Origin: Sulfurovum sp.
GTDB taxonomy: Bacteria; Campylobacterota; Campylobacteria; Campylobacterales; Sulfurovaceae
Reading direction: 5' to 3'
NCBI GenBank assembly: GCA_027063305.1
Contig: JAMORY010000027.1
Location: 1-64,000 of the forward strand
DNA: 64,000 nt
The notes under the pieces were generated by a model, which worked only from the letters and a program-made list of their open reading frames with translations, searched no databases and was not told the origin of the DNA. Made by a program: the position numbers and the translations under genes. Positions 32,110 to 45,124 of this stretch are shown here, in pieces. Each line of letters starts with the position of its first letter. Position 1 is the first letter of the stretch.

Positions 32110-32165
32110 TTACTCATTACTCATTACTCATTACTCATTACTCATTACTCATTACTCATTACTCA
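32110..32165 (+). repeat. Eight perfect tandem copies of a 7-bp unit (TTACTCA)
   Basis: 56 bp of exact TTACTCA repeats, with a partial unit after. It is the only perfect and longest heptamer array in the window and has no GC-ATACC hairpin beside it, only a weak GTAAG/CTTAC stem about 20 bp upstream. The unit is related to the ATTCACT/ACTCATT units of the composite elements. It lies between the GH3 gene and the small ORF at 32218-32271. Copy number should vary easily by slippage. Confidence 0.95.
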
Positions 32166-32217
32166 TTATTTTACCCACCCGTTATTAGTATTCGGTTAAA
32201 CTTGATCCTTTATACTT

Positions 32218-41898: not shown

Positions 41899-41934
41899 TA
41901 AGTTATAATACTTCCATGCATAAATCAAACAGAA

Positions 41935-42012
41935 GCATCGCTCTGCGATGCATACCTCAACCATTCATTATTCATCATTTATCATTCATGTCTGAAGCCA
42001 AAGGCTTCAGAC
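41935..42012 (+). repeat. Composite hairpin-heptamer element, copy D, upstream of rnr
   Basis: Hairpin 1 GCATCGC (41935-41941), loop TCT, GCGATGC (41945-41951), then ATACC. Array 41963-41989: ATTCATT, ATTCATC, ATTTATC, ATTCAT. Hairpin 2 has perfect 10-bp arms GTCTGAAGCC (41990-41999) and GGCTTCAGAC (42003-42012) around AAA. AAAGG in loop and arm is the only ribosome-binding site for the rnr ATG, which starts one base after the stem. Confidence 0.88.
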
Positions 42013-42013
42013 T

Positions 42014-43987
42014 ATGAGTGCATTCGCAAGACAGCTCATCAAAGGGTGTCTGCCTTCAGACATCGAGCAAGAGGACAAGAACGCATTTGAAGAGCTCCGA
42101 CGCATCGGTGCACTCGAAGAGGTAAACGGACTATGGAAGCTCAACTCTCTTTACCGTGCAGGACGACTCTACATCGGTAACGACGGGCGTGGTTTCGTCG
42201 AAGCGGAGTTCAAAGAGCAAAAAGACCTGCTTATCGAACCTGATCACCTAGGAGATGCCAAGAACGGTGATGTGGTCGTTGCCAAACGCATCATTGCCCG
42301 TCGCGGACGTGCGGCGGGAAAAGTGGTCGCTGTCATCCAAAAGGCGCACCTCTTTACCATCGCCTACACACACCGTGACGAACAGGGCAACTTCAGCATC
42401 CTTGACATCCATACAGGAGAGCCCACACATGCAGTGATGCCGGGCATGGACCTCAAGGCTTTCAAGATCGGTACCGTCCTCAAGGTCGATGTCGATACCG
42501 ATGAAGTGCTGGAGGTCTTCGGACACCTGGCAGACCCAAAAGTCGATGAAAAGATATCACTGGCACTCTACAACCGCCACGACACATTCCCGCCCGAATG
42601 TGTGGATGAAGCGCTTGAGATAGAGTCGGAAGTGACCAAAAGCGAGCATAAAGGGCGTATCGACCTGACAGCGCTTGACTTTTGCACCATCGATCCGGTC
42701 ACGGCAAAAGACTTTGACGATGCCATCTACTTTGACCTTGAAAAGTATGTGCTCTATGTCGCCATTGCCGACGTGAGCCACTATGTGCCCTACTTCACCG
42801 AAATAGACAAAGAGGCGAAGAAGCGAGGCTTTACCACCTACTTCCCACACAAGTCCTTCCCGATGCTGCCTCGTGAACTGAGTGAAAATATCTGTTCACT
42901 CAAACCGAAGGTCGATCGTCTGGCATTTGTGGCAAAAATTACACTCGACAAAGGCTCGCTCAAACCGCTGAAAGAGGAGTTCTTCGAGGCGATCATCCAC
43001 TCCAAGCACCGCTTCAACTACGAAGCGGTCGACGGGATCATCGCTAATGGCTACAGCGGCAGCAACCAGACCATTGAACGCATCTTACACTGGCTCATGC
43101 CGTTGCAGCAGATCACCCAGAGACTGCGCAAAGAGCGTCTTAAACACGGGTTTGACTTTAGAAGTGAAGAGATCAAGCTTACCATCAACGACGAGCATGA
43201 ACTGATCTCTACGCAAATAGAAACCGGAACCCCCTCACACTCGCTCATCGAGGAGTGTATGCTTTTGGCAAACCAGGCAGCTGCCAAACGCTTTAACGGG
43301 GATGGTGACAGCATCTTCCGTATCCATGAGCCGCCGCAACTGAGCAAGATGGAAGCACTTCTTACCGAGCTGGCTGCCATCGGGCTCTATGTGGAGGAGT
43401 ATGAAGACTCTCCCGACCTGATCCGCGCCATTCAAAAAGAGGCGCAGAAGATGGGACTTGCCGCAGAGGTCGATGCGATGATCATCAAGTCGCTCCGTCA
43501 GGCAAGCTACTCTGCGTACAATGTGGGGCACTTCGGACTGGGCTTTAGCCACTACAGCCACTTCACGTCACCCATCCGCCGGTATGCCGATTTGATTTTG
43601 CACCGTCTTATCAAGACACAGCTGCGAAACGATGAAGAGGAGGCGGAGTACCTTCTGCGAAACATCGACCCGCTCTGTGTCAGAGTCAGTGAGTTGGAAC
43701 GTGAAGCGACCAAATCCGAATGGGACTTCAGAGACCGTAAATTCGCCAGATGGGCGCAAAAGAACAAAGGTCTCTTCTTTGAAGCGGAGGTTATCGAAGC
43801 AGGCGAAAGCGCCAAAGCCGTTCTCAAAGATGACAACGCCCCTCAGGGACTCACCGTGCATCTTAAAGGTGATAACATCATGCTCTTCGATAAAATACGT
43901 ATCATGATCACCGAAGTCCACATCGCACAGGCGATCGTGATGGCTGAACTGGTGAATAAACTGAGTAAAGAGGAGATGGAACTATGA
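42014..43987 (+). CDS. rnr: RNase R, 3'-5' exoribonuclease (RNB family)
   Basis: A 657-residue enzyme degrading structured RNA. N-terminal cold-shock-like domains (about 40-190) lead to the RNB catalytic domain with FCTIDPVTAKDFDDAIYF (Asp metal ligands), FPHKSFPMLPRELSENICSL, AAKRF and GFSHYSHFTSPIRRYADLILHRL. The S1 region at the end is short (ends near residue 657), as is usual for this phylum. The start is embedded next to a hairpin that carries its SD. It ends with an ATGA overlap to a 53-codon ORF leading to holA. Confidence 0.95.
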   Translation: MSAFARQLIKGCLPSDIEQEDKNAFEELRRIGALEEVNGLWKLNSLYRAGRLYIGNDGRGFVEAEFKEQKDLLIEPDHLGDAKNGDVVVAKRIIARRGRAAGKVVAVIQKAHLFTIAYTHRDEQGNFSILDIHTGEPTHAVMPGMDLKAFKIGTVLKVDVDTDEVLEVFGHLADPKVDEKISLALYNRHDTFPPECVDEALEIESEVTKSEHKGRIDLTALDFCTIDPVTAKDFDDAIYFDLEKYVLYVAIADVSHYVPYFTEIDKEAKKRGFTTYFPHKSFPMLPRELSENICSLKPKVDRLAFVAKITLDKGSLKPLKEEFFEAIIHSKHRFNYEAVDGIIANGYSGSNQTIERILHWLMPLQQITQRLRKERLKHGFDFRSEEIKLTINDEHELISTQIETGTPSHSLIEECMLLANQAAAKRFNGDGDSIFRIHEPPQLSKMEALLTELAAIGLYVEEYEDSPDLIRAIQKEAQKMGLAAEVDAMIIKSLRQASYSAYNVGHFGLGFSHYSHFTSPIRRYADLILHRLIKTQLRNDEEEAEYLLRNIDPLCVRVSELEREATKSEWDFRDRKFARWAQKNKGLFFEAEVIEAGESAKAVLKDDNAPQGLTVHLKGDNIMLFDKIRIMITEVHIAQAIVMAELVNKLSKEEMEL

Positions 43988-44145
43988 GTGAAAGCGTTCA
44001 GCGTTCAGCACCCCAAGGGCATTTGTCACTTCGTTCGGGCACGTTCAGTGTTCAGAATAAAAGCGTTGCACAGCAACGCATACCAACACTCCTCACTCCT
44101 CACTCCTCACTCCTCACTTTAAAAATCTCCCAAGGAGATTTTTAA
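43984..44145 (+). other. 53-codon ORF bridging rnr and holA through the repeat element
   Basis: It begins at an ATGA overlap with the rnr stop and stays open through the intergenic region, the heptamer array (Leu/Thr/Pro/Ser-rich segment) and hairpin 2, stopping at TAA 44143-44145, one base before the holA ATG. The product (MSESVQRSAPQGHLSLRSG...) is not recognised. More likely a device for translational coupling, or an accident, than a functional protein. GTTCAG repeats near its start (43993-44058) are also notable. Confidence 0.35.
44063..44143 (+). repeat. Composite hairpin-heptamer element, copy E, upstream of holA
   Basis: Hairpin 1 GCGTTGC (44063-44069), loop ACA, GCAACGC (44073-44079), then ATACC, linker AACACT and four perfect CCTCACT units (44091-44118). 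Hairpin 2 has 10-bp arms AAAAATCTCC (44121-44130) and GGAGATTTTT (44134-44143) around CAA. The SD (AAGGAG) pairs with its own CTCC. holA starts 4 nt after the stem. Confidence 0.9.
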
Positions 44146-44146
44146 G

Positions 44147-45124
44147 ATGTATCAGCGTGAATTCGACCAACGGCTCAACCAAGCCCTCCCTAAAGCCGTT
44201 CTCTTCTTTGGAGACAATGAGTATATGATCGATCACTACATCGATCTATATAAGAAAAAACTCGATGCAGGGGAAGAGACGCTGGTACTCTATTTTGACG
44301 AATGGAATTTCGATCAGGCAAAGAGCTATCTCTCTCAAACCTCACTCTTTGGCGGAACCAATCTGCTCATTGTCAAGCATGACAAGAAGATCCCCAAAAA
44401 AGAGCTTGATATGCTCATTGAACTGGCGAACAAGAACAGTGACAACTACTTTCTCTACGGCTATACAGGCAGTGCGAAAGATGCAAAAAGTATGCAGAGC
44501 AGTTTTAGTGAGAAAAAAGGAGGTATCTGGGTACGTTTCTTTGAGCCCAATATGCGTGATGGCATGCCTTTGCTACAGCAAAAAGCGGCTCAACTGGGCA
44601 TCGATATTGACCATTATGCTCTTCAGCATTTGATGCTACTGCTGAACAACAACCTTGCACTCTGTACCAAAGAGCTCGAAAAACTCTCTATTTTGGAAAG
44701 TAAAATAACCAGCAAAGATATTGACAGACTGGTCTATTCGACCGCACCGCTTGCAACCGAACAGCTACTTATAGACCTTTTTAACAAAAAACCGGTCACT
44801 GACACCATTACCAAACTGCTTGACCTTGGTGAAGATGAGACATCGCTACTGCGTTCTACACAATATTTTGTCGATCAGATATTTCTCTTTCACGCTTACA
44901 TCAAACTGCATGGGCAGGTCAACTCCGCAGAGATACTCGGATACAAACTCCCCAAACAGATAGAGGAGCAAAAGGCACAACTTGCACTACGGGTAAAATC
45001 TGCGGCTTTACTAAAGATATTCGAACACCTGCTTGAGAGTGAGATCGCAATGAAACAGGCACCTGCTACACAGCGGGAAGTACTGCTTTACAGTATACTG
45101 ATCAAGATACAACAATACCTTTAG
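44147..45124 (+). CDS. holA: HolA, DNA polymerase III delta subunit
   Basis: A 325-residue clamp-loader subunit that opens the beta clamp. It has the delta-family layout: an N-terminal Rossmann-like domain (AVLFFGDNEYMIDHYIDLYKKKL, LFGGTNLLIVKHDKK), a lid region with LDIDHYALQHLMLLLNNNLALCTKELEKLSI, and a helical C-terminal domain (EQLLIDLFNKKPVTDTITKLLDLGEDE). No Walker motifs, as expected for delta. The rnr-holA-rpsF-ssb-rpsR order is shared across Campylobacterota. Its SD lies within a perfect hairpin of a repeat element. Confidence 0.9.
   Translation: MYQREFDQRLNQALPKAVLFFGDNEYMIDHYIDLYKKKLDAGEETLVLYFDEWNFDQAKSYLSQTSLFGGTNLLIVKHDKKIPKKELDMLIELANKNSDNYFLYGYTGSAKDAKSMQSSFSEKKGGIWVRFFEPNMRDGMPLLQQKAAQLGIDIDHYALQHLMLLLNNNLALCTKELEKLSILESKITSKDIDRLVYSTAPLATEQLLIDLFNKKPVTDTITKLLDLGEDETSLLRSTQYFVDQIFLFHAYIKLHGQVNSAEILGYKLPKQIEEQKAQLALRVKSAALLKIFEHLLESEIAMKQAPATQREVLLYSILIKIQQYL

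Follow-up and report, generated by a model that had tools for sequence, protein, structure and literature searches.

What does an uninterrupted open reading frame of 53 codons do between rnr and holA, where it runs through repetitive DNA from the stop codon of one gene to the start codon of the other? We address this question in a 64,000-nucleotide stretch of Sulfurovum sp. DNA (the window), in the genome that contains it, and at the corresponding junctions of relatives.

The rnr-holA junction

The first-pass annotation had described an open frame at 43984-44145 with an ATGA overlap at its opening, one base between its close and the holA ATG, and a hairpin holding the holA site. All of this is found in the sequence. 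The frame contains no internal stop. Its ATG (43984-43986) shares bases with the rnr stop TGA (43985-43987), and its own stop, TAA (44143-44145), is followed by a single G (44146) and the holA ATG at 44147. We call this frame the relay (Table 1). The hairpin comes from an inverted repeat whose 12-bp arms match perfectly around a 3-nt loop, with GGAG in the 3' arm, and RNAfold gives -13.7 kcal/mol for 44111-44160. The array before it has a period of 7 with 100% match, and its last 28 bp are CCTCACT x4; its 32 nt comprise 18 C and no G.

Table 1 Features at the two junctions that flank rnr in the window.
Feature	Position	Strand	Remark
Second relay ORF, 40 codons	41895..42017	+	TTGA on upstream stop to ATGA on rnr start
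Stem-loop of second, weaker element	41929..41955	-	Pattern with 1 mismatch
CATTCAT array x4 of second element, 80% match	41962..41989	+	
rnr, RNase R	42014..43987	+	RNB domain and NCBIfam match; stop TGA overlaps relay start
Relay ORF, 53 codons, ATGA to TAA	43984..44145	+	Frame also kept at ten other rnr-holA junctions
Short heptamer array AGCGTTC x2.4	43993..44009	+	
Module ACCCCAAGGGCATTTGTCACTTCGTTCGGGCAC	44010..44042	+	By eye; L038 and L076 show a similar stretch
Element stem-loop (GTATGC..GCTTTTAT)	44057..44083	-	Genome pattern matches
Heptamer array CACTCCT x4.6, 32 bp	44087..44118	+	Stop-free in every forward frame
Palindrome, 12-bp arms	44119..44145	+	GGAG (44134-44137) of holA hidden inside
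holA, DNA polymerase III delta	44147..45124	+	NCBIfam match

The holA product matches NF006302 (DNA polymerase III delta) of NCBIfam above its cut-off. The best match of the rnr product, TIGR02063, is below its cut-off, and TIGR00358 is just above. The 53-residue relay product has no match in Pfam, a search of Rfam gave one match only, far below the gathering score, and the plasmid records yielded a single record, an rnr match in Sulfurovum mangrovi. For the window junction alone, such an ORF arises in 1.1% of dinucleotide shuffles, and in 18.5% of those that keep the array and the palindrome with random phase.

A dispersed repeat with heptamer arrays

The interval between the two genes belongs to a dispersed repeat. 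The window's own genome (G000; 2.03 Mb, 34 contigs) holds 43 matches to it, and the stem-loop pattern occurs 48 times with at most one mismatch, against 6 for the reversed control pattern. Copies have in common the order stem-loop, ATACCAA-like linker and array. Most copies are nearly uniform in their heptamer, which varies from one copy to another (CACTCCT, CACTATT, CACTCTT, CATTATT, AATTCTT, TTACTCA, CTCAACG and others). Of 142 arrays sorted into approximate classes, 73 are turned towards a gene start and 56 towards a gene end; gene-start placement is therefore not exclusive.

Other features of the arrays were seen in passing. Copies with TTACTCA are often preceded by TCGG or CGG, and one at 32110-32168 of the window forms a long array of 8.4 units with no palindrome after it. 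Several genes terminate in ...SEE* (L085, L093, L054, L071 and L094), their last codons and stop being read from the reverse strand of the array. A REP/RAYT (REPIN) origin was rejected: the two RAYT-like Y1_Tnp transposase genes (L215 and L216) are flanked, by inspection, by palindromes of their own (GGCGGGACT..., GTAGGGG...) and not by the element stem-loop or heptamer.

A second, weaker element lies upstream of rnr, after a gene which we take from its sequence to be htpX. Nine co-directional gaps of 50-250 nt in the window were called array-free, and a relay spans one of them and none of the other eight; this one gap is the junction upstream of rnr, which does carry the weaker element with its CATTCAT array and stem-loop. 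Over the rnr starts listed, a relay is present in only 6 of 29 loci. In L098, L099, L101 and L106 a leader frame through the array, seen by eye, follows a TATAAT-like box and terminates on the rnr ATGA.

Filled and empty junctions in relatives

We found 55 holA loci and, after dropping two partial ones (L268 and L270), compared 53, recognising rnr by its C-terminal tail. The gap is -1 where rnr overlaps holA (20 of 53) or where another gene does so (nine), and L271 has 4 nt before holA. At least 10 nt separate holA from the upstream gene in 22 loci. Among the 31 'gap<10' loci the automatic parse had placed L248, whose upstream sequence was too short for it, and we moved this locus by hand to the filled set. 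In genomes of the same genus, 15 junctions show rnr overlapping holA and no element; these come partly from the same genomes as the 20. Since rnr and holA overlap stop to start in many Sulfurovum, they were probably coupled ancestrally.

At eleven rnr-holA junctions with a spacer of 46-228 nt, an ORF opens on the rnr stop, with ATGA in G000, G014, L225, L230, L234, L248, L249 (the same junction as G009), L250, L251 and L258, and with GTGA in L264. Its stop codon begins 2-5 nt upstream of the holA start. These relays have 15-76 codons, and they differ in sequence and heptamer. Counted over the 22 loci, array-bearing junctions comprise six with a relay and two without (L259 and L265). Where no array was detected, six have a relay, including L245, trivial given its gap of 21 nt, and eight do not; among these eight are L232, with rnr 74 nt away, and several loci whose upstream frame is weak or distant. 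Most filled rnr-holA junctions, but not all of them, thus keep the relay frame, and the array-bearing L259 and L265 and the 74-nt gap of L232 count against coupling. Relays of 31 and 37 codons also follow a non-rnr upstream gene in L231 (array) and L229 (no array), and in Nitratifractor (L267) a 257-nt spacer contains a relay of 84 codons that begins 6 nt past the first base of the stop.

The holA genes of L248, L249, L250, L251 and L258 diverge by 5.3-9.7%, and their spacers range from 69 to 228 nt; L248 and L258 are alike, and L249 has a different palindrome. Five junctions with one 3' palindrome in common (L225, L248, L250, L251 and L258) have spacers of 96, 72, 69, 228 and 72 nt, all multiples of 3, which is not separate evidence because an ORF defined by a fixed start and stop imposes it. 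At well-supported forks of the holA tree, the filled G014 pairs with the empty L228, and the filled L234 with the empty L240 and L246, so the element was inserted or lost several times.

The loci L248 and L251, with spacers of 72 and 228 nt that are both in frame, come from one metagenome bin and are probably two strains. The final stop of the G014 relay (TAATG) may be simply the old rnr stop.

Conservation of the frame

Over the eleven junctions (374 codons per frame) the relay frame contains no internal stop and the other two frames contain 27 and 10. This count is a plainer statement than the product of chance values, about 1e-9 with array and palindrome kept in random phase and about 1e-18 with full shuffles, both of which are too small because the junctions share ancestry.

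The best surviving alternative is that the frame is a by-product, open because the forward array is stop-free and the rest is short, with an end stop left from the old overlap and no selection. Common heptamers (CACTCCT, CACTATT and CACTCAT) indeed have no stop on the forward strand, and single-junction chance values with array and palindrome kept are 0.02-0.34. The stops in the other two frames argue against it, as does the 228-nt spacer that stays open for 76 codons.

Arrays at other genes bear on the same point from both sides. We classed 134 arrays with enough flank by their neighbouring genes, leaving out the holA site: 26 are '+,+' (both genes read in the direction of the array), 41 '-,-' (both read in the opposite direction), 34 divergent, 15 convergent, 10 within one ORF and 8 unclear. 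The gene sides were assigned from ORF lengths, and some are wrong, as for L214, which has a start although it was classed as a gene end. At co-directional junctions no bias of arrays to the stop-free strand was found (26 '+,+' vs 41 '-,-'); stop-rich reverse-strand arrays are equally common there, as the by-product reading would have it. These orientation counts also give no support to the otherwise attractive idea that translation shields the array from Rho, which we set aside. Against a by-product, 11 of 25 '+,+' junctions outside holA have a relay, defined as an ORF ending -6 to +4 of the next start, where 2.19 are expected with arrays and palindromes kept (P = 5e-8); one of the 26, without a start, was dropped, and the 25 include orthologues (L079 and L211), just as the holA junctions are not independent. 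Divergent sites give a mild signal, with a leader ORF through the array in 10 of 27 (4.4 expected, P = 0.004). On balance we regard a mere by-product as unlikely.

Palindromes fitted to neighbouring genes

A palindrome with a score of at least 8 directly follows the array (start -1 to +4) in 30 of 96 cases, against 15 of 3473 random positions at the same loci, in a sample that is mostly from G000 and includes near-duplicates. Eight other genomes give 20 of 64 against 6 of 2146 in the control. Such a palindrome is absent at about two thirds of the arrays. Its far arm is the neighbouring gene, often including coding bases; examples named by eye are the starts of tsaD, coaD, agmatine deiminase and hisH, and the interior of murD. 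Orthologous sites have different palindromes, each matched to its own gene, as at the rnr start in L097, L098 and L106, and murD has two types, ATCCAAACCG/CGGTTTGGAT and TGAAAGGC/GCCTTTCA. At coaD the arms of L196 pair perfectly and the sister L179 retains its arm against a changed codon; pairing is therefore not always maintained. At 177-231 of the window a CACTATT-type array precedes the palindrome CATGATGCAAGGAGTGCATCATG, and the start of the next gene (hisA-like by eye) lies in the far arm of this palindrome.

We infer that the palindrome arose by copying of the target end during insertion; at gene starts, a Shine-Dalgarno stem may in addition be selected for. A bolder reading, possible but doubtful, is that the element is a new kind of tiny mobile DNA. 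On insertion, snap-back copying of the target end would leave about 6-17 nt of the target gene, inverted, at one border of the element, beside a heptamer array that is made anew and has a fixed size. Each insertion would thus build its own Shine-Dalgarno hairpin or stem, and would persist in coupled operons only if a relay frame delivers ribosomes through it.

Could the palindrome alone regulate initiation of holA or stability of the mRNA, with translation of the ORF irrelevant? The predicted stem hides the Shine-Dalgarno sequence, and a palindrome with a score of at least 7 is near the holA start at 13 of 15 filled junctions and at none of 30 overlapping or 4-nt junctions (L248 moved by hand). 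This explanation, which we consider improbable, would leave the conservation of the frame unexplained, and it sits poorly with the mismatch at coaD in L179, where the sister L196 pairs, and with the spread of palindromes with a score of at least 8 over array sites, since by approximate classes they are present in 30 of 73 cases at gene starts, but also in 9 of 56 at gene ends and in 2 of 11 within genes.

Array length and phase variation

The first-pass annotation had further held that gain or loss of one CCTCACT unit shifts the frame and could switch holA output. The shift itself is correct, as 3 does not divide 7: the stop would lie at -27 with one unit fewer and at +79 with one more. The lengths of the arrays give the switch no support. 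Arrays containing ACT peak at 31-33 bp both in G000 (25 of 59, with 8 of 59 at 38 bp or more) and in eight other genomes (28 of 53), and those at the G000, G014 and G009 junctions measure 32, 32 and 31 bp. The product of holA is a replication subunit, an unlikely target for a switch. Rare slippage of the array may occur, but we give phase-variable control of holA very little credence.

Copies inside genes

Arrays are also read in frame within ORFs, among them murD, hypF and priA. For MurD, HypF, CbiB and HisH the NCBIfam match extends over the insert with a score above cut-off, and PriA is above cut-off in two stretches. Matches across the insert are below cut-off for the MnmC C-terminal model, the SdhA/FrdA type (L038 and L199), AnmK and a phosphoglucomutase, several of them cut by the end of the locus. 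In a CCA-adding type enzyme (L088) the model match spans one of two arrays. The MurD linker, from YDYF to the S of SGTNGK, has 14 codons in 9 of 30 loci and 20-54 in the other 21; it contains different repeats and is open in all 30 loci read. At least two frames run through the stem-loop, as KSVAQQRIPTL at holA and as EALQSNANQHSSL in MurD, and the open frame is therefore not one fixed peptide. That the relay ORF encodes a functional small protein, as its conserved openness might suggest, is hardly credible given its lack of a Pfam match, its range of 15-76 codons and a stem-loop read in two different frames at different sites.

The MurD linker of L125-L154 is an insertion hot spot for several repeat types, with a GTAGGGTGGGC palindrome pair in frame in L146 and other palindromic inserts in L135 and L136. 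The hisH copy in L033 reads in frame. A single genome has hisH on two contigs (L033 and L060), both times with a CTCAACG-type array in frame, through a duplication or a mixed assembly.

Discussion

We consider it probable that the relay frame delivers ribosomes from rnr through the inserted repeat to holA. Coupling by ribosomes passing through the ORF, as the first-pass annotation had proposed, is likely; conservation of the frame, the empty sites and the Shine-Dalgarno sequence in the palindrome stem all point to it, and this support is drawn from sequence comparison.

We propose that a mobile or formerly mobile repeat, made of stem-loop, linker, array and locus-specific palindrome, entered between rnr and holA. 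The insert would have been tolerated and later altered, mostly as forms in which the frame stays open between the rnr stop and the holA start. On finishing rnr, a ribosome would restart at the ATGA, probably using the Shine-Dalgarno sequence in the rnr tail that formerly served holA, and would read 53 codons into a peptide without function. On its way it would open the palindrome that hides the new Shine-Dalgarno sequence of holA. It would terminate at the TAA, a single base short of the holA ATG, and holA would be started by this ribosome or by one behind it.

Judged by description, the nearest working parallel is the MIRUs of mycobacteria, which in the cited passages appear mobile, insert at start codons and contain an inner ORF coupled to the following gene at -4 nt (PMC12548453). 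The Sulfurovum element belongs to another phylum and has no single conserved ORF, different frames of its stem-loop being read. The ORF through it leads to the next gene at the eleven rnr-holA junctions and 11 of 25 others, not at all sites. Its heptamer is not constant, a palindrome specific to the locus comes after it, and some copies are found within genes. The Rickettsia palindromic elements, as described in the cited part of PMC10969869, insert in frame within unrelated genes, as our element does in MurD, HypF, CbiB, HisH and PriA; they measure about 150 bp and encode one conserved peptide, whereas the stem-loop and array of our element measure about 63 bp, are read in more than one frame and include a variable tandem array.

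Arrays with a period of 7 and few units, mostly intergenic, are described in the cited passages for Xanthomonas, where four is the commonest number of GGGAATC units (PMC4692102), and for Beggiatoaceae, where many TAACTGA arrays lie near start codons (PMC4679880). The heptamers there are different, and those passages describe no stem-loop, target-matching palindrome or relay frame. Bicistronic leader-cistron couplers, in which a short ORF containing the next Shine-Dalgarno sequence delivers ribosomes and overcomes mRNA structure, are covered in the same account as the MIRUs (PMC12548453, cited passages); they are engineered or native leaders, whereas the Sulfurovum relay would have been rebuilt from repeat DNA between two genes. 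A survey of GTAG/CGTC palindromes names Sulfurovum, and the element was not found in the cited part of it (PMC3733652). In the open-access literature on Sulfurovum repeats and on coupling across repeats we found no report of the element.

The relay would be retained as a small ORF for the sake of its frame and end points and not of its peptide. It offers a natural setting for tests of translational coupling and calls for caution in small-protein annotation. Such a frame is a possible reason why repeats settle inside operons and essential genes, and the gene-fitted palindrome may be a clue to the origin of the widespread, unexplained heptamer arrays of bacteria.
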